From contig NZ_CP119423.1 of NCBI RefSeq assembly GCF_029223585.1, positions 1,798,001 through 1,862,000 of the forward strand: 64,000 bases of DNA, in the 5' to 3' direction. The position numbers and the translations under genes are program-made. Shown here in pieces: positions 5,970 to 64,000 of this stretch. This stretch comes from Photobacterium sp. DA100 (GTDB lineage Bacteria; Pseudomonadota; Gammaproteobacteria; Enterobacterales; Vibrionaceae). A model generated the notes under the pieces. The model did no database searches. It was not told the origin of the DNA and saw nothing but the letters and a program-made list of their open reading frames with translations. Within the stretch, counting starts at the first letter, position 1, and each line of letters opens with the position of its first letter.

Positions 5970-6862
5970 TTAAACCTGATCTAATGGACTTTTGACGCCG
6001 CTGAAATGCGTGCCTACGACATGGGTGTAGATTTGAGTCGTTTTTATATCGCTATGGCCAAGCAGTTCTTGGATATTCCGCAAGTCTGTACCGGACTCAA
6101 GTAAACGGGTAGCGAAAGAATGCCTAAAAGTGTGGCAGTTTGCTTTTTTTACTATTTTGGCCTGTTTGACTGCGGTTGCTACTTGCTGTTGCACACTACG
6201 GTCAGTTAAATGGTGGCGCATCAATTTGTTTGAGCATACACCTCACCATAACCATTTTTGGTATCCAGTTTGTACAGGGCTGTGACTGATTCTATTTGAT
6301 GTTTAAGATCTGCAATAATGTGCGGCGACAGTAGGGTCTTTCTATCTTTGTTTCCTTTACCATTTCTGACAGTAATACTTAAGGTATCAAAGTTAATGTC
6401 ATTAATCCTGAGCCGAAGCGCTTCGTTCACACGAAGCCCGCTGCCATACATTAACTGGGCCACAAGCCTGCATGGATATTGAAGCAGTCGGATTATCGAC
6501 ATGGCTTCTTCGTGGCTGAACACTTCTGGTAATTTTGTAGAACGTTTTGAGCGCTTGAAATTTAACAAACTAGTATCTTGATTAAGCATCTCCCTGCAGA
6601 GAAAGACAAGTGCGTTTAATGCTGTCCTTTGGGTGTTTGGTGAGACATTTTTAGTTGTCACCAAATGTTCGAGGAATAGTTGAATATCTCTTGCATTGAT
6701 TTGATTACGATGTCGGTAACGTGAGAATAGGATAAACCGTTTAATCCAACTGATGTAGGCTTTCTCGGTTGAATAGGATAGCCCCCTTGTACGAATGAAG
6801 GTGGTTACCTCTGCCAAAAAAGGACTTTTAATGCTTGATAGTGGCTGTGGGATATCTTTCAT
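5970..6862 (-). pseudogene. intI: Integron integrase IntI, disrupted by internal deletion and frameshift
   Basis: Tyrosine recombinase that inserts and excises gene cassettes at attI and attC. The upstream part (6862-6221, 213 codons) has the N-terminal SAM-like core-binding domain and catalytic Arg in YGSGLRVNEALRL (R144) and Lys in NGKGNKDR. The downstream part (6224-5970, other frame) has [18 protein letters not shown] and the tyrosine in QIYTHV. Between GEVY and MRHHLTD about 30 residues usual for IntI, in and just after the integron-specific insert, are missing and the frame changes; the TGA of part one overlaps a TTG-ATG of part two. All catalytic residues remain but on two frames. No SD is evident before the ATG. 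It reads away from the cassettes, as in chromosomal integrons. Confidence 0.9.
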
Positions 6863-7091: not shown

Positions 7092-7128
7092 GATAGTCGA
7101 AGTGGTTTCGACAAATAAAATGTTATGT
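7092..7128 (+). other. attI: attI-like recombination site at the start of the cassette array
   Basis: The core GTTATGT (7122-7128) is the first junction of the array: cassette 1 ends with the matching R'' ACATAAC at 7503. Ten nt before the core sits a hairpin, GTCGAA (7096-7101) pairing with TTCGAC (7107-7112), followed by AAATAAAAT. The site lies 230 bp upstream of the intI start, in the correct divergent position. A closely related sequence begins the second array at 60178. The identification as attI is by position and junction logic. Confidence 0.75.
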
Positions 7129-10194: not shown

Positions 10195-10315
10195 ATTTAA
10201 CAAGGCGTTTAAGGCGGACTCACAACGCTTTGCGCTCTCAGTTTAAGTTGAATTTAGTGTTTAAGGTACAATGGTTTAAGTTTGGTGGTTGGCGTTGTTC
10301 ACCACTTAACGCGGC
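10195..10315 (+). repeat. attC: attC5, interrupted by an IS1111-group element
   Basis: Starts with ATTTAAC, which mirrors GTTAAAT at the start of cassette 5, and runs normally to CACTTAACGCGGC. The expected R' core is missing here and reappears as GTTATGT at 11662-11668 on the far side of the insertion element. Confidence 0.85.
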
Positions 10316-10330
10316 TACATGGACTCCCCC

Positions 10331-10576
10331 GGTTGTCAACAATAGCGTCAGGTGCTGGAAGGTTGGGACTGCCGCTCTACATTCGGTCTGTTTACTGGCT
10401 TTCGATGCCATGACCCTGATGACACTACGCGGTTGCGGTTCCTCATTCGTTAGAAGGCATCTACAGTGCCCGCCGCATTATCAGGTTTTCCCGCAAAAGG
10501 TCTGAACCTTACATCATCATTGGCTATTGCAATGACCCGGTGAAGCTATTTATTCCTTTAGAAATTGGTTTGGCTT
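10331..10576 (-). ncRNA. Probable bridge/seeker RNA region of the IS1111 element
   Basis: This 246-bp segment lies between the transposase stop and the 3' inverted repeat, where IS1111-group elements encode the guide RNA that directs integration. It is noncoding in the transposase direction. TCATTCGTTA occurs here (10443-10452) and again exactly across the right IS-target junction (11656-11665); ACGCGG occurs here (10427-10432) and in the left target flank (10309-10314). RNA ends cannot be fixed by eye. Confidence 0.6.
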
Positions 10577-11601
10577 TTACATTGGTTGGTATTCGGTGTC
10601 GTTACTCAATAACGACCAGATAATTCTCGCGTTCTTGGCTGCAAGGGCAACAATGGCCCGCTTGAAGCCTCGTCGCTCGACCAGGTTTTTGCACCATAGG
10701 CTAAGCCGATCGGTTTTATTGCCAATGGCTGAGATAACAGCCCTGGCACCGTGAACCAATAATGTCCTGAGGTACTTGTCTCCTTTTTTGGTTATTCGGC
10801 CAAGTCTGGGTTTTCCACCGTTTGAATATTGTGACGGTACCAACCCGAGCCAAGCGGCAAAGTCTCGGCCTTTATCAAATTGTTCGCCTTTACCAATACT
10901 GGCGATAATGGCAGTGGCGGTAATTGGGCCGATACCTGCAACTTTCATGATTTTCTGTGCATTATGGCTGCGTGAAACAAGCATATTGAAGCAGTGTTCT
11001 TGGTCAGCAATACACTGGTTTATACTCAGTAAGTGCTCATAACTGTCGGAGATAATAGCTCTGGCTAAATCGGGCAGCTGGTTTTCTCCACCTTCAAGTG
11101 CTTCAGGGATGGCTGCTTGTAAGGCGTGTCGGCCTTTGGGTGCGATGATGCCAAATTCTGCCAGCATAGCTCTAATTTGATTGAGTAATGCTGTTCGCTC
11201 ATGCACCCAGTTATCACGTGCCCGGTGGAGGAAAAGGATGGCTTGTTGCTCTGGTGATTTGATTTTAACGAAGCGCGTTGAAGGGCGGGTGACAGCCACA
11301 CAAATAGCCACAGCATCGTTGAGATCGTTCTGGCACCCGTCCTGAAAGGTGCCACATATTTTGATGCCATTATCTTGGGAGTATGGCCGAGTTTTGCCAG
11401 TTCTCGACCCCAGTAATGGGAAGCCCCGCAGGCTTCCATCCCGATAATCGCCGGTGGAATGTTGGCAAACATAACAAGGACTTTTGAGCGAGTTATTGTT
11501 TTATGAATCAGTATCTTGCCTTGTTCATCTTCGCCGTGGATACTGAACGAATGTTTGGCTAAATCAATGCCATAAATTGATGGTGACATGGTGGCCTCCA
11601 A
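10577..11601 (-). pseudogene. IS110-family transposase (recombinase), frameshifted
   Basis: The N-terminal RuvC-like DEDD domain is read from 11601: YGIDLAKHSFSIHGED (first Asp), GMEACGASHYWGRELAKLGH (Glu). At TGCQNDLNDAVAI the frame shifts by an apparent 1-bp deletion near 11334-11339. The rest is read to 10577: the last two Asp in NDLNDA, a helical linker, and the Transposase_20 domain (MKVAGIGPITATAIIASIG, LGLVPSQYSNGGKPRLGRITKKG with the catalytic Ser region). About 340 codons in all, the usual length. Probably inactive unless a programmed frameshift is used, which is not usual for this family. Confidence 0.88.
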
Positions 11602-11661
11602 GGACTGTAGTCAGACTTACCAAGTGTGGCAGAGCCTGATGAGGGGGAGTCCATGTCATTC

Positions 11662-11668
11662 GTTATGT
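11662..11668 (+). repeat. Displaced R' core of attC5
   Basis: GTTATGT marks the start of cassette 6; cassette 6 ends with the mirror ACATAAC at 12188, which confirms the junction. Confidence 0.8.
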
Positions 11669-58318: not shown

Positions 58319-59740
58319 TTACACCAGTGTTTGTACGTAATCGTAGACAGCTTTTAGGATCTTCATATTCTTCTCGCTCGATTGGTGCTCCATGGCAACG
58401 GCTTCGAGGTTTTGAATATACCCTGGAAGGTTCTCTTCGAAGAAATCCTGGCAATGGTGCTTCCAGCGCTGTTGCTCTTGGTAATCCAGTGTCATCGGGA
58501 AATTACGGGCACGGTAGCGGAACAGCAGCGGCTTGATGCGCTTGTCGCTGACGTTTAGTTCCAGCTTGCCCAGTTCATCCTCAGGGGTCTTCTGGATGAT
58601 ATCGATGGTTGAGCGATCGGCGTTGGAGAAAAAGCCGTCGTACAGCATGGCGTCGACGTTGTCATGTTTTTCAAACTCTCGCTCGACACTGTATATCGCC
58701 AACAGCTTCTCACGGATTTCCGGATGCGCTTTCAAGGTCGCCAGGTTCTTCAGGCAAGCTTCGCGGTCGATACCGATACGGGCGGCATCTTCGGCGCGTA
58801 GCGTTTTCGCCGGCGCAAGGACCGGGCATTTATTCAAGTGCACCAGTTTCAGCGGAACAGGCAGTTCATCCGGGCCGAGATCAACCCGTTTGGTGTAGAG
58901 CCGTTCGCGCAGCTCATCGGCAGGGAGCTCGATCAGCGGGGTCGGATCCATGGCCAGGTTCACAGTAATTACCGCATTCTTGTTATCAGGGTGCCATGCC
59001 ATCGGTACGATCCAGCTGGTGTTGCCGCACTCGACACCGAACATGCCAGAGACATGCATCAGCGGGGTCATTTCCACGATATCTACCAGCTCTTGCAGCT
59101 TACGCTTATTACGCAGCTTGAAGAAGTAGTCAAACAGCTTTGGCTGGTTCTGCTTAACGATTTTTGCCAATTCAATAGTGGCATACACATCGGCCATCGC
59201 ATCGTGCGCATTGGCGTGTTCAATACCGTTGGCAACCGATAGGTGTTCCAGCTTAAAGCTCGGCAGGCCGTCCTCATTGGTCGGCCAGTTCATGCCGTCC
59301 GGACGAAGCGCATAGCACGTACGCATGATATCCAGCAAATCCCAGCGTGAGTTGCCGTTTTGCCAGCTCCAGGCGTATGGGTCGTAGAAATTGCGGTAAA
59401 GGGTATAGCGGGTCACTTCATCATCGAAGCGTACGTTGTTGTAGCCGATCACACAGGTATTGGGCTTCGACAGCTCCTGGTGAATACGGGCAATGAACTC
59501 AGGCTCAGGCAAGCCTTTCTCATGGGCTTCCTGCGGTGTGATCCCGGTGATAAGGCAAGCTTCAGGTGAAGGCAGGTAGTCCACCGGTGGCTTGCAGTAG
59601 ATCACCAGCGGCTCACCGATAATGTTCATGTCCATGTCGGTACGCACCCCGGCAAACTGGCACGGGCGATCTAGCGCCGGATTGGCACCGAAGGTTTCAT
59701 AATCCAGCCAAAACAGGGTTGGCTCATTGGTTTCATTCAT
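58319..59740 (-). CDS. sbcB: Exodeoxyribonuclease I
   Basis: 473 residues. Degrades single-stranded DNA 3' to 5' in repair and recombination. The DnaQ-like domain shows LFWLDYETFGANPALDRPCQFAGVRTD (ExoI: D-x-E), VIGYNNVRFDDEVTRYTLYRNFYDPYAW (ExoII) and NAHDAMADVYATI (ExoIII, H-D-A). The SH3-like and helical C-terminal parts follow to IQNLEAVAMEHQSSEKNMKILKAVYDYVQ. Monocistronic; the second cassette array begins about 440 bp beyond its promoter. Confidence 0.97.
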   Translation of the reverse strand: MNETNEPTLFWLDYETFGANPALDRPCQFAGVRTDMDMNIIGEPLVIYCKPPVDYLPSPEACLITGITPQEAHEKGLPEPEFIARIHQELSKPNTCVIGYNNVRFDDEVTRYTLYRNFYDPYAWSWQNGNSRWDLLDIMRTCYALRPDGMNWPTNEDGLPSFKLEHLSVANGIEHANAHDAMADVYATIELAKIVKQNQPKLFDYFFKLRNKRKLQELVDIVEMTPLMHVSGMFGVECGNTSWIVPMAWHPDNKNAVITVNLAMDPTPLIELPADELRERLYTKRVDLGPDELPVPLKLVHLNKCPVLAPAKTLRAEDAARIGIDREACLKNLATLKAHPEIREKLLAIYSVEREFEKHDNVDAMLYDGFFSNADRSTIDIIQKTPEDELGKLELNVSDKRIKPLLFRYRARNFPMTLDYQEQQRWKHHCQDFFEENLPGYIQNLEAVAMEHQSSEKNMKILKAVYDYVQTLV

Positions 59741-60177
59741 AGTGTTTTCCAGAAGCCACCGTGTTGATATTAAGTGTTAGTTCTCACGGTAGCTTTTTAA
59801 AATTGGTTGGAATTTAAGCACTGATACAACACATATTTTTAGCTGTTCAACACTTAAAAACTCAGATTAGTTAAGTATCCCGCAACTCGCCGCAAAGAGG
59901 CAAGGTGCAAAGGTAAATTCATGATGGAATTGAGCTCGACAGGCCAAAACACCAGATTGGCGGATGGAAGGTTGACAGATTTTCTAGACATCATTGTCAG
60001 TTAAACTATTTACACCATCAATAACATATGGTTACATACAGAACGTTGTGCTGAAGGATTGAGCGAGAGTGGTTTGATTAGCTACTGGCTGCATTTTAAA
60101 TGAACTCGTTTCGTTAATCTTCTTCGTCTATTCAGCGGTACCCGGAAGATATACGAACGGTGTTCGTGAAATAAAAT
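59741..60177. other. sbcB promoter and approach to the second attI-like site
   Basis: 437 bp, no gene seen. It holds the sbcB promoter (leftward) and, at its right end, the sequence related to attI at 7092. A segment CAATAACATATGGTTACATACAGAACGTTGT (here shown in parts) around 60017-60048 is only loosely like the sequence before the first attI. Confidence 0.4.
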
Positions 60178-60184
60178 GTTATAA
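60148..60184 (+). other. Second attI-like site
   Basis: Core GTTATAA (60178-60184) starts the second array; the first cassette ends with the mirror TTATAAC at 60734. Just before it, ACGAAC (60153-60158) pairs with GTTCGT (60162-60167), followed by GAAATAAAAT. Across 35 nt it matches 27 bases of the attI-like site at 7092-7126 without gaps, with paired changes in the stem. Confidence 0.65.
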
Positions 60185-60200
60185 GTGAGAGGTAGACGAA

Positions 60201-60704
60201 ATGATTATATCTCCAAATGATTGGATGATTAAAGCTGGTGCAAAAATTGTTGGCGATAATCAATTGGCTCTTCCCTTGAATTGTTTATTGGTACCAATGG
60301 GGCTAGCTAGTGAAGCGATTGTCTCGTATAGGCAATCTGAAGCACTAAATGAACGGATAAAACATGGTTTAGTTGTAGTGACTATGGTTCGTGTAGCCGA
60401 TACAGCTTACTTTTCTCGTGTGGCAAAGATGTTGTATGAACATAATGGGAAAAAAATTAAGATATGTGAACATTGCATTAGAGGGCAACTCTGGCCCACA
60501 AAAATTAAGGAATATCGCCAAAAAGCGAACAAAAATATTATCCACAAAATGGAACAGGGATTACCTATCAACAATATTGATTTAGAAGTGGTTGAAAAAT
60601 ACTACGAGGAAATGTTCCAGCACCCTTTAACGAACCCTATACATTGGCCAGCAGTAAATGGATTGCAGCGTTGTAACAAGTGTACTCAAAAAAGAAAAAG
60701 ATAG
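60201..60704 (+). CDS. Hypothetical protein with CxxC pairs (array 2, cassette A)
   Basis: 167 residues. Two CxxC pairs, KICEHCIRGQLWP (about 91-100) and RCNKCTQKRKR (C-terminus), could bind zinc. AGAGGTAG lies 4 nt before the ATG. Soluble, basic at the end; no family recognised. It is the first gene after the second attI-like site. Confidence 0.72.
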   Translation: MIISPNDWMIKAGAKIVGDNQLALPLNCLLVPMGLASEAIVSYRQSEALNERIKHGLVVVTMVRVADTAYFSRVAKMLYEHNGKKIKICEHCIRGQLWPTKIKEYRQKANKNIIHKMEQGLPINNIDLEVVEKYYEEMFQHPLTNPIHWPAVNGLQRCNKCTQKRKR

Positions 60705-60733
60705 GGCATTCCTCACAAGTCAGGCGTGTTCAC

Positions 60734-60838
60734 TTATAACAAAGCAATCAAGGTGATGCGTTACACTCGGCGGTTTTGGTATGGAGTTTGGTGCGCTTTG
60801 CTGGTTCAGTGGGGCACACCTTATTGCCGGCGTTATGT
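60734..60838 (+). repeat. attC: attC A of array 2
   Basis: 105 bp, TTATAAC to GTTATGT. Nearly the same body as the short-class attC sites of the first array (GCGTTACACTCGGCGG and TTTTGGTATGGAGTTTGG). Confidence 0.9.
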
Positions 60839-60867
60839 AAATCTCAATAATTTGGAGTAATTTAAAC

Positions 60868-61953
60868 TTGGACAGTCTGCTAGAGCCAACTCTACCTGTA
60901 AATATACAGTCGTTTTACGCAATGCTAGTTTCTGTAGCAGGAGTTTTGCTTGGTATTGGTTTTGCAGCAATGCTATTCATTTTGCAAAGTGGGTTTACCT
61001 CCTTCAAGTATTCGCGACGAATGTATGTCTTGCTTTATTTGTATTTTGGTAAGCAAGTTTTGCTTTCGTTGGCGTATCTTACTTTACTTCCTTTTTTGGT
61101 TCTGTATTTACCTGATAGTAATCAGGTGACAGCATTTGTTCAGTTCGCCTTTTGCATTTTCTTTCTGGTTAATACACTCGATTATGCGCGAGAAGAGGGG
61201 TATATAATCACTCTCAACTCGCACAAGTTTGTACCTCGACAATACGGTTCAATTCGTCGCTACTTTCGATATATAAGTAATCGAGGTACATTACGAAATG
61301 CTGTGCATTTGGTGCCACCTTTCTTTGTTGTCTTGTATCCTTATATGCTTTCTTCAAAAAATGGGCTGACTCTAGAACTCAGTGAAGTAGCAATGTTTTA
61401 TTCCTGTTTACTTGTGCTTTGCTATACCCTGTTTAAGCTTACAATGTTTATTCCGGAGTTTTTCTCATTCACGGACACTGAGTTTAAATTAACGCATAAA
61501 CTGGACACTGATGAGCCGAAAGAGGATGACAGAAGCTATGAAATAGAGCGTTCGCACCTCAAAGAATATCTTGTAAATCATGGGTATCATGAGTTGGATC
61601 CAATGACTCCATCGAGCTTTCTCGATGGTGAGCTTAAAATGTATTTATTCCCTTCTAAAGGAAACCTAGCACATTTCAATATCTATGTTGAAATTAATAA
61701 TACTACGCCAGAACAGCTCAAAGAAGAGGTTGCGAAGTATGGGTATAGTTTTGCTAAAGTTCTAATGAACTCAAAGTCTGACATCACTCAATTCGTTCTG
61801 TCATTTCACGTTACTATCTCTGGAGATAAACAGAGAAATTTGTTTTTTAGGTTCGATACTGGCGATATTCATGCACTTAACGAACATTCAATAAATGGTC
61901 ATATGTCTATGTTTGATCTCAAAAATGTTTGTGTTGATGAACTCTTCAGGTAA
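60868..61953 (+). CDS. Membrane protein, 361 aa (array 2, cassette B)
   Basis: Starts at TTG with GGAG about 10 nt upstream; no better start is near. Four to six hydrophobic helices in the first 205 residues (FYAMLVSVAGVLLGIGFAAMLFILQSG, LSLAYLTLLPFLVLYL, FVQFAFCIFFLVNTL, VPPFFVVLYPYMLSS, MFYSCLLVLCYTLFKLTMF), then a soluble C-terminal domain of about 150 residues. The layout resembles membrane-anchored effector proteins, but I recognise no family. Confidence 0.75.
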   Translation: MDSLLEPTLPVNIQSFYAMLVSVAGVLLGIGFAAMLFILQSGFTSFKYSRRMYVLLYLYFGKQVLLSLAYLTLLPFLVLYLPDSNQVTAFVQFAFCIFFLVNTLDYAREEGYIITLNSHKFVPRQYGSIRRYFRYISNRGTLRNAVHLVPPFFVVLYPYMLSSKNGLTLELSEVAMFYSCLLVLCYTLFKLTMFIPEFFSFTDTEFKLTHKLDTDEPKEDDRSYEIERSHLKEYLVNHGYHELDPMTPSSFLDGELKMYLFPSKGNLAHFNIYVEINNTTPEQLKEEVAKYGYSFAKVLMNSKSDITQFVLSFHVTISGDKQRNLFFRFDTGDIHALNEHSINGHMSMFDLKNVCVDELFR

Positions 61954-61956
61954 TTT

Positions 61957-62082
61957 ACATAACAAAGCATTTAAGAGTGATTCCCAACGCTTGGCATTTT
62001 TCATTCCATCGTTGGGTTTTATGTTTACGGTGGTATGGTTGGGTTTCGTGGTAGCGTTGCTCACACCTTTATGCGGCTAAGC
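61957..62082 (+). repeat. attC: attC B of array 2
   Basis: 126 bp, ACATAAC to GCTAAGC. The R' has GC in place of GT at the crossover bases; R'' of the next cassette (GCTTAAC) predicts GTTAAGC. Confidence 0.82.
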
Positions 62083-62106
62083 AGCTAGGTGATTTGGTAA
62101 GAAGAA

Positions 62107-63345
62107 ATGAATTTTAATCAAAGATTTGAATGTACAACTTGTGAAAGTTTGGTTGATTGTAGAATCGGAATGTCTAACAGAGATGTTCAACCAATAAGGT
62201 TTTGCTGCCCAAGTTGTGGCGAGGCCATCCATATTGATATTGAAAATGGAAAAGGCGTAAAAGTAAAAGGGGCTAAAGCAGTTGAGTTTGAGGGACCTTT
62301 TACCAACGAGTATCCATTTGTCGATCTACACCTAGATTTTCCTGTTACTTTTGGTGAATATCAAATGGGTCATACACCATTTTTGAAAGCTATAGGCCGA
62401 ATTGGGCATGAAAACTTCGGTATTCACAATGCCAGATTGAATGGCTTGAACATATTACATTCGAAAACTGAAGAATTAGAACGTGTTCTACGTTTGTACT
62501 CAAAAAATGTGAATTTATTTGGACGGTTATGTAAAAAAGAGTTTGGAGAAACTCTAAGGTCTGAAAAGCCTCAAGATGTAAACTTAGCCCTATATTGCGT
62601 CATAGCGAAAGTGTTTGCCCCTTTTTCAATGCCATCTGAAAACGCAGAGTCTGTTGCTATTCATATGAAAGGTATTAATGATGCATTATCTTCTGATGCT
62701 GAGGCATTTGATGCACTTTTTGAGGAGATTATTGGAACCGATTTTTTAAAGAATACACAACACGATTGCATAGAAATTTACCCGCAAATTTTGGCAGGAG
62801 AGTTGGCATTTAGACCAGCACTATTTCTGGACTTTGACACCGATTACGATAAAGAGTTGGTAGCTTTTAGGGTGTCTACAGATGACTTTAATAAGTACAA
62901 AGATCTATACAAAGATATCTCTGAAATTTTATCTCGTCAGCTCATTTTGGTCGCAGGGATTAACAACGTTATTCATCGTAAAGATCATAATAAGTTCAAA
63001 GATGTTGGCAAGGCAACGCCGAAGTCACTCAGCCACTTTGCAGACTTACCTTATGGATTTAAAGTCAGTCATTTAGATGAGTGCTGGTACCAAATTGGTG
63101 AAGATGCAATTAATAACCAGTTGCGTAACTCAATTGCACATGTCAAAGCGGAATATGATGATACAACTCAAGTTATCACTTATTACCCCAAGAAAGAAGG
63201 TATAAAGCAAGAGAAAGCAAAGTCAATGTACTTCATTGATTTTATGAGAAAAATACTCATGTCATACCGTGAAATGCATCGACTACATCAATTAATTAAA
63301 TGCCTGTTTAACTATGAGCATTTGATTCGCCAAAAAGCTGCTTAA
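62107..63345 (+). CDS. Zinc-finger and HEPN-motif hypothetical protein (array 2, cassette C)
   Basis: 412 residues. The N-terminus has CTTCESLVDC and RFCCPSCGEAIHI, which could form a zinc ribbon. The C-terminal region is helical and contains NNQLRNSIAHVKAEYDD (about 337-353), an R-x4-H motif (RNSIAH) as in HEPN ribonucleases. Many HEPN proteins act in phage defence or toxin systems; here the role is inferred from the motif only. No antitoxin-like gene is seen in the same cassette. AGAAG precedes the ATG. Confidence 0.75.
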   Translation: MNFNQRFECTTCESLVDCRIGMSNRDVQPIRFCCPSCGEAIHIDIENGKGVKVKGAKAVEFEGPFTNEYPFVDLHLDFPVTFGEYQMGHTPFLKAIGRIGHENFGIHNARLNGLNILHSKTEELERVLRLYSKNVNLFGRLCKKEFGETLRSEKPQDVNLALYCVIAKVFAPFSMPSENAESVAIHMKGINDALSSDAEAFDALFEEIIGTDFLKNTQHDCIEIYPQILAGELAFRPALFLDFDTDYDKELVAFRVSTDDFNKYKDLYKDISEILSRQLILVAGINNVIHRKDHNKFKDVGKATPKSLSHFADLPYGFKVSHLDECWYQIGEDAINNQLRNSIAHVKAEYDDTTQVITYYPKKEGIKQEKAKSMYFIDFMRKILMSYREMHRLHQLIKCLFNYEHLIRQKAA

Positions 63346-63464
63346 CAAACTGTTGAAGAGTGATTCTACAACGCGTGGCATTTTTACTATGCGTTGCGTT
63401 TAGTGTTTAAGGTGGTATGCGGCGGCATCGGTATTCCGTTGCTCACACCTTAACAGGGCTAAGT
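63340..63464 (+). repeat. attC: attC C of array 2
   Basis: 125 bp, GCTTAAC to GCTAAGT, again with GC instead of GT in the crossover core. Confidence 0.8.
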
Positions 63465-63513
63465 GCTCTTAGATTATTGAAATAATTTAAGTTATGAGGA
63501 TGAAAAATGAAAA

Positions 63514-63969
63514 ATGAGTAATGTTGCAGACAGCAATGCTAATGTTGTGACGCAGACTGATACTGGGGTTGACGCATTTGAAGCCTTGACTGTTCGAGAA
63601 GATGTCGCTGTCAAACAACCAGTAGCTGATAAGAAAGATTTTTTTGTCCAAACTAGAGCAAGCACATTAAATAAGTGTAGAGAAAAACTTAATAAAATTA
63701 AAAATCATAGTTTTACCTATGGTGAAATACTACTGAGTATTTGTTCTGTCGGAATAGGTGTTATTGCGAGTGCTTACTTCTCAAATGTTCAATTAAACAA
63801 AGATGCTTTGTTTCCGTATGTAATAACTCCTGTTGTAAGCTCAGTTTGTGGAGTGTGGTATTTTATAAAGAGAAAGGACAGCCATAAAGCAGCTAGTGAT
63901 TTAGCTGAAGAAATACTTGATGAATTACCAAATCCAGCAGAAACTGTTGATGTTAAGGTTAAACAATGA
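63514..63969 (+). CDS. Membrane protein, first gene of a two-gene cassette (array 2, cassette D)
   Basis: 151 residues. A polar N-terminal region of about 65 residues is followed by two membrane helices (YGEILLSICSVGIGVIASAYF and FPYVITPVVSSVCGVWYFI) and a charged tail. GAGGA lies 13 nt before the ATG at 63514; the nearer ATG at 63507 is out of frame and stops after four codons. A 7-bp tandem duplication (TGAAAAA) at the start region explains the odd spacing. Its stop overlaps the next start (ATGA). Confidence 0.65.
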   Translation: MSNVADSNANVVTQTDTGVDAFEALTVREDVAVKQPVADKKDFFVQTRASTLNKCREKLNKIKNHSFTYGEILLSICSVGIGVIASAYFSNVQLNKDALFPYVITPVVSSVCGVWYFIKRKDSHKAASDLAEEILDELPNPAETVDVKVKQ

Positions 63970-64000
63970 ACATTAATGATATCTACACTCAATTATTATA
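63966..64000 (+). CDS. Second gene of cassette D (partial, cut by the window edge)
   Basis: Starts ATG at 63966, overlapping the TGA of the previous gene, with frame MNINDIYTQLL open to the edge. The overlap implies coupling and a joint function of the two products. No family can be read from 11 residues. Confidence 0.55.
   Translation, partial: MNINDIYTQLL

Follow-up and report, generated by a model that had tools for sequence, protein, structure and literature searches.

The integron attachment site attI is usually located beside the integrase gene intI, according to the available text of PMC12901181. In the window, i.e. the whole 64,000-nucleotide stretch of Photobacterium sp. DA100 DNA that was analysed, two cassette arrays are present, and the site that heads the second of them (attI2) does not adjoin intI, a trait that is usual for an attI and not a strict one; the gene lies 53 kb off and is broken. 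This raises the question of what attI2 is and which enzyme placed cassettes behind it. Features of the locus are collected in Table 1.

Table 1. Features of the attI2 locus and of the related intI-linked site (window coordinates)
Feature	Position	Strand	Remarks
intI, broken	5970..6862	-	residues 211-241 of 328 missing, frame change
attI1, intI-linked attI	7092..7126	+	96-97% identity in sisters G012 and G024 up to crossover
sbcB-like gene (exonuclease I domains)	58319..59740	-	chromosomal landmark adjoining attI2
Tyrosine-recombinase gene remnant	59844..59934	+	between sbcB and attI2
Leader	60097..60147	+	more ATACGAA/TTCGTAT boxes, partly decayed; common to sbcB-linked attIs of other species
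attI2	60148..60182	+	left half of orphan attI (inverted repeat and core AAATAAAATG) and first bases of first cassette
Inverted repeat ACGAAC-GGT-GTTCGT	60153..60167	+	adjoining presumed L box
Cassette array 2	60179..64000, on past window	+	
Array 2 attCs in window	60737-60835, 61960-62070, 63343-63459	+	
Array 2 attCs beyond window	64710, 65625, 65797		65797 weak

The earlier note had matched attI2 to the intI-linked attI1, and this match stands: 27 of 35 positions are identical without a gap, and the core AAATAAAATGTTAT is indeed the same at 7113-7126 and 60169-60182. Even with up to two mismatches AAATAAAATGTTAT occurs in the window only at these two places; a shuffled window holds a mean of 1.38 such matches, so that the 14-mer by itself is no proof. 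Each site carries a hairpin as described earlier, ACGAAC/GTTCGT with a loop of 3 in attI2 and GTCGAA/TTCGAC with a loop of 5 in attI1, the two having a common axis of symmetry, and the stem-pair changes noted between them (T-A to A-T and G-T to C-G) are correct; among 200 shuffles of the + strand, 3 folded as well as attI2 and none as well as attI1. That the likeness goes beyond chance follows from other genomes. The match of attI1 to the sister genomes G012 and G024 stops at GTTA(T), beyond which the first cassettes differ, and in other species the BLAST relatives of 60097-60186 mostly stop within a few bases of the core (in the G045 relative the core has decayed and the match stops five bases before it). 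Chance likeness of the two sites is ruled out by these relatives, by the sister comparison and by a search of the genus with a covariance model, R1, under which the two window sites have E-values of 1.1e-5 and 4.1e-5 that are not independent, since both are among its 23 training sites. The core and the ATACGAA boxes are conserved at sites of the attI2 type and are candidates for L and R boxes and direct repeats; by analogy with known attI sites, crossover at attI2 would fall between the G and the TTA at 60178/60179. A generic terminator, the other identity considered for 60148-60182, was not found there; the site sits ahead of cassettes and has no terminator-like pattern.

As expected of an attI, attI2 is followed by attC-bearing cassettes in a single orientation. 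With five clear attCs, array 2 belongs to the CALINs (at least two attCs and no intI nearby), the only intI-like matches in its own genome being the broken gene 54 kb from the array and weaker ones far off. The readable parts of the broken gene correspond to residues 1-210 and 242-328 of a 328-residue relative, in two frames with no DNA between them, which points to a deletion of ~94 nt with a frame change; the frame is unbroken in both sisters. Since IntI is broken in this strain, the content of its arrays has probably ceased to change. Two neighbouring array 2 attCs (62060-62080 and 63450-63470) have right ends that read GGCTAAG, versus GGCGTTA in relatives, and among 181 distinct attC matches the ending GCTAA is found only in those two (GTTA in 141, 38 not classified); it may be that the cassette which they flank can no longer move.

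Past array 2, from 66557 on, the sequence is again syntenic with G012, and in G012 the slot beside sbcB is occupied by other genes, the first of which consists of pieces of a tyrosine recombinase gene. In G026 and G032 the interval from sbcB to attI contains a long open recombinase gene whose domains are of phage-integrase and arm-binding type. Judged by position, an attI-type site occurs near sbcB in eight genomes (the window's own, G008, G022, G026, G027, G028, G032 and G045), and sites in G001 and G033 have a leader of the sbcB-locus family, the G001 site being ~46 kb away from the gene and close to a second copy of the stretch upstream of sbcB. Because such sites and leaders recur in several genomes, attI2 is probably an old resident of the sbcB locus and not a recent copy of attI1. 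In G024 (G024:C12) a stretch like window 59695-59934, from sbcB to the recombinase gene, is present three times in ~17 kb, at least two of the copies being followed by recombinase ORFs, as in a stacked integration hot spot.

The earlier note suggested a duplicated attI as the seed of a second array, and this is supported, in that a search for the element in related genomes reveals sites ahead of cassettes throughout the genus and not a single duplication. R1 comprises 34 positions, near-duplicates and three poor or unlike sites having been left out of its training rows, and at E <= 0.01 per genome it finds 93 sites, the 23 training sites included, in 30 of 52 Photobacterium genomes; this count is a lower bound owing to strict filters, and about half a chance match is expected overall. 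Fifteen sites are intI-linked and 75 of the 78 others were read, those left unread being G043:C218, G027:C45 and G001:C135. Two of the 75 proved to be intI-linked after all: in G049 other DNA (a transposase, by eye) lies between intI and attI, and at G032:C3:1353998 an intI remnant is beside the attI. There remain 73 strict orphan attIs in 28 genomes, with up to 7 per genome (G015), and in G012, G016, G032, G035 and G044 they are found on two large contigs. The genome of the window has a third site with its own attCs at C1:1927205-1927238 (-), ~69 kb beyond attI2; an ORF upstream of it resembles, by eye, a filamentous-phage assembly protein.

Hardly any site of this type lies outside the genus. 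When 84,980 species genomes were scanned for the exact pattern, the 18 stretches returned were all from Photobacterium, and a scan of the family found a site in 31 of 296 genomes, 30 within the genus and one outside. The latter, G238:C2:1065791, has no attC by profile in the 12 kb around it. Another genus is represented by G111, which carries three integron integrase genes of equal score (C1:1891505, C3:25065 and C3:47511), possibly recent copies.

A number of features indicate that the orphan sites behave as attI. An iterated nhmmer profile, whose 14 window matches all lie within the two arrays, was used to detect attCs in place of an arm-pairing attC finder that failed to separate arrays from background. 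By this profile a same-strand attC is present in the 4-4.5 kb read downstream of 49 of the 73 strict orphans and an opposite-strand attC at none, and within 1 kb an attC occurs upstream of 1/75 sites and downstream of 29/75. The profile detects no attC at 24 of the 75 (19 with at least 4 kb read and five with less). Over 90 sites (the 75 together with the 15 intI-linked ones) the information content is 1.9-2.0 bits through TTA and drops to 0.26 one base further on; the sites have the left side conserved up to the G and TT of the crossover and the variable right side that distinguish an attI. Comparable evidence comes from leaders, paired when they belong to different genomes and run for at least 500 nt to the crossover at 82% identity or more. 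In 25 of the 26 pairs nothing detectable is common to the next 1 kb, and the remaining pair has the same first cassette; without three pairs that involve an intI-linked site or remnant, 22 of 23 differ after the crossover, although pairs share sites and are not independent.

First cassettes are in a few cases common to more than one site. The first cassette of a G038 orphan is 705 bp long, ends exactly at its attC, and is also first at the intI-attI of G038 (88%) and of G050 (89%); orphan sites of G013 and G018 likewise have a first cassette in common (81%). The differing arrays behind matching leaders, together with the shared cassette, argue that cassettes have been inserted at the orphan attIs, probably through IntI acting in trans. 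In G037, G038 and G050 every one of the seven sites, whether intI-linked or orphan, has the derived core variant GAAGAAAATGTTA, versus 0/83 others. A second variant, AAATAAAATGTTA, occurs in 5/90, i.e. at the three sites of the window's own genome and at the intI-linked sites of G012 and G024, and is absent from the orphans of the latter two. Agreement of cores within a genome is the trace that one integrase acting on all sites would be expected to leave, and is not proof of it. A 1.37-kb segment that array 1 has in common with orphan arrays of G016, G035 and G050 was rejected as a cassette since it encodes an IS110-type transposase, and its presence at 100% identity in two G050 arrays does not argue for exchange of cassettes. 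In the window this insertion sequence occupies 10313-11666, starting at the end of an array 1 attC, and relatives of it (~80%) lie in orphan arrays of other species.

It thus appears likely that attI2 is an integrase-less attI copy beside sbcB, one of a family scattered through the genus and recognised in trans by IntI. According to this explanation, the integron integrase of each genome would recognise the scattered Photobacterium copies, each made up of an inverted repeat (arms of 6 bp, centre of 3 nt) and, after it, a core GAATAAAATGTTA that presumably is the L-R region, and cassettes inserted between the G and the TTA of attI2 would have built up array 2. The inverted repeat is taken to belong to the sequence that is recognised, as a symmetrical site, by the integrase or a partner protein. 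The data themselves show the copies, the sharp boundary at GTTA, attC arrays on one side only, differing array content past the boundary of matching leaders, the cassette common to an orphan and an intI-linked site, and the covariation; insertion by IntI in trans, reading of the repeat by IntI and any route by which the copies spread are inferred. A broader proposal, which we hold only tentatively, is that of a distributed integron, in which one integrase serves several attIs over two chromosomes and recognition of attI depends in part on a palindromic or folded element, free to change in sequence as long as its halves match.

What the inverted repeat is for bears on this proposal. The earlier note had taken the paired changes in the stem to mean that a folded structure is selected. 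Covariation was weak on the first 23 sites and was analysed again on 58 distinct ones, where 290 of 348 stem cells (six pairs) are Watson-Crick. The pair next to the innermost (A-T 19, C-G 18, T-A 8) is Watson-Crick in 45 sites versus 20.3 expected if independent, and the innermost pair in 42 versus 24.1; sliding the partner by 1 to 4 columns reduces pairing from 0.83 to at most 0.34. Permutation of the 3' arms within genomes (22 genomes, 71 sites), which counters clade relatedness, gives 355 pairs seen and 343.6 expected over all six (P = 0.00035) and 103 seen and 97.2 expected over the inner two (P = 0.054). Clade history therefore does not account for all of the covariation, but what is left after its removal is modest. 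The hairpin is conserved at the attI position in that most intI-linked attIs of this type have it, three of the six pairs being broken in G037, G038 and G050.

Inverted repeats with unrelated stems (e.g. CGGGCA/TGCCCG, ACACCA/TGGTGT and ACAGAA/TTCTGT) are often found at the same place in the other attIs of the Vibrionaceae scan. A perfect stem of at least 4 bp is present in 18 of 32 such attIs versus 10.8% of random windows from the same loci, and one of at least 5 bp in 8 of 32 versus 2.4% of windows; for these attIs, which are related to one another, the cores were picked by eye, and 6/29 other-genera loci without a visible core were left out. The stems of 4 bp or more divide into 15/23 in other genera and 3/9 at Photobacterium loci with another attI type. 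The attI1 of the literature, not to be confused with window 7092-7126, has a similar short repeat, GGGC/GCCC, to the left of its L box.

Of the claim that folding is selected, the part that stands is that the repeat and its covariation are real and that similar repeats occur at many attIs. What does not follow is the step to a fold, since the ATACGAA box is also found single and as direct repeats nearby, the inner pairs are broken in many sites, and the data do not separate a hairpin from a palindromic duplex site. It is possible, at somewhat less than even chance, that the repeat is kept because one strand folds, either as a hairpin of single-stranded attI or as one in the 5' leader of cassette mRNA. 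The Watson-Crick excess at the inner two pairs, the six-pair permutation within genomes and the unrelated stems at the same place in other attIs are consistent with this, as are the occurrence of several stem sequences within one genome (e.g. G018, with one intI) and the distribution of non-Watson-Crick cells (G-T on the + strand 27, A-C 4, other 27). However, the G-T excess may only mirror weaker conservation of the 5' arm, little comes from the inner two pairs taken alone or from the first 23 sites, stems are imperfect in many sites and a perfect 4-bp stem is lacking in 14 of the 32 other attIs, and the sites are related, so that the counts are not independent. A duplex site is favoured by the single and directly repeated boxes and by the strong conservation of CGA and TCG, the most conserved part of the arms. 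In the available portions of PMC8191803 and PMC8946536, the integrase is described as recognising its cognate attI by sequence, as duplex, and the latter has attI recombining as duplex.

Recognition in trans by IntI has also to be weighed against the reading that the orphans are relics of complete integrons that each lost intI, which is unlikely. The intI remnant beside attI in G032, a possible one elsewhere in G028, the decay of the window's own intI and the leader of one large family, which by eye is like an intI-attI intergenic region, all speak for relics. Reading in trans has against it that 10 of the 30 site-bearing genomes give no intI match at 1e-30. By tblastn at 1e-6, G016 and G035 (6 sites each) show only more distant recombinases (43% identity over part), presumably of Xer type, so that their arrays are now without a known integrase; where intI is missing, either the arrays predate its loss or they are served by another enzyme. 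Against the relic reading, the same tblastn search detected no other remnant in the 10 intI-less genomes, though more decayed ones would escape it; up to 7 losses per genome would be needed; and in G037, G038 and G050 the orphan and intI-linked sites have the same core variant.

The leaders of the sites bear on how the copies arose. Some copies have leaders of 0.1-1 kb in common; the large family of 29 clustered sites, mostly from G007, G013, G015, G016, G035, G041 and G044, and a G050 pair with a leader common over 661 nt at 97% suggest that leader and attI were duplicated as a unit. No empty site with clear ends was found, and comparison of G050 with G038 shows the leader at both loci. The orphan leaders of G007, G015, G016 and G035 contain a conserved block of ~130 nt several hundred nt before attI, which is repeated further upstream in some copies.

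The remaining alternatives fare less well. Template switching in replication can correct imperfect palindromes to perfect ones, and it would yield pair-wise changes of arbitrary sequence, so that the covariation could be mutational and owe nothing to selection for structure; this is improbable, as it leaves unexplained the fixed distance between repeat and core and the conserved CGA/TCG. Action on the site by the neighbouring tyrosine recombinase of phage-integrase type, instead of IntI, is suggested by the open gene at the sbcB locus of G026 and G032 and by its remnant in the window, and is very improbable: by eye, the 1 kb ahead of non-sbcB orphans has no such gene among its two longest ORFs, and G012 and G024 have the recombinase gene beside sbcB without an adjoining R1 site. 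Least credible of all is that the array 2 cassettes entered an ordinary genomic site (attG), as IntI is known to do according to the available text of PMC12901181, with a merely coincidental likeness to attI, a reading refuted by the BLAST relatives and R1 sites, i.e. by a target that resembles attI, by conservation of 34 bases to the left of the crossover across 93 sites, and by a leader at sbcB common to several species.

The attI copies recognised in trans share features with several known systems. As in the sedentary chromosomal integron of Vibrio cholerae (attIA, intIA), there are VCR-like attC arrays, a core with a GTTA boundary and a LexA-like box near intI. V. cholerae has one attI, beside intI, whereas a genome here can have as many as 7 more at a distance from the gene. 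The CALINs of Xanthomonas are likewise intI-less cassette arrays at recurrent chromosomal loci, put down to ancestral integron activity, but the available text of PMC12444791 names no attI for them, while the arrays here are headed by attI copies. At attG sites cassettes are also inserted away from intI; attG diverges from classical att sites in the available text of PMC12901181, unlike the attI-like left half found here. The same portion of that source describes Delta-attI-type cassettes of class 1 and 2 integrons, which likewise have extra attI sequence off its place beside intI; there, pieces of attI replace the attC of a cassette inside an array, whereas here attI copies head separate arrays. 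The attI1 of the literature has two direct repeats upstream of its L and R boxes and attIA has none, as given in the accessible parts of PMC4792948 and PMC8946536. In the mostly open-access literature, as far as its available text extends, dispersed attI copies in Photobacterium or at the head of CALINs are not described, nor is an inverted repeat as a general part of attI.

CALINs are known from many genomes and their origin is a live question. That many such arrays in this genus are headed by attI copies points to insertion in trans and supplies a mark that can be searched for. The genus also offers tens of natural attI variants, several of them per genome, from which it may be learned what an integrase reads, including the inverted repeat. 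If the distributed integron is real, cassettes can be placed at many loci.
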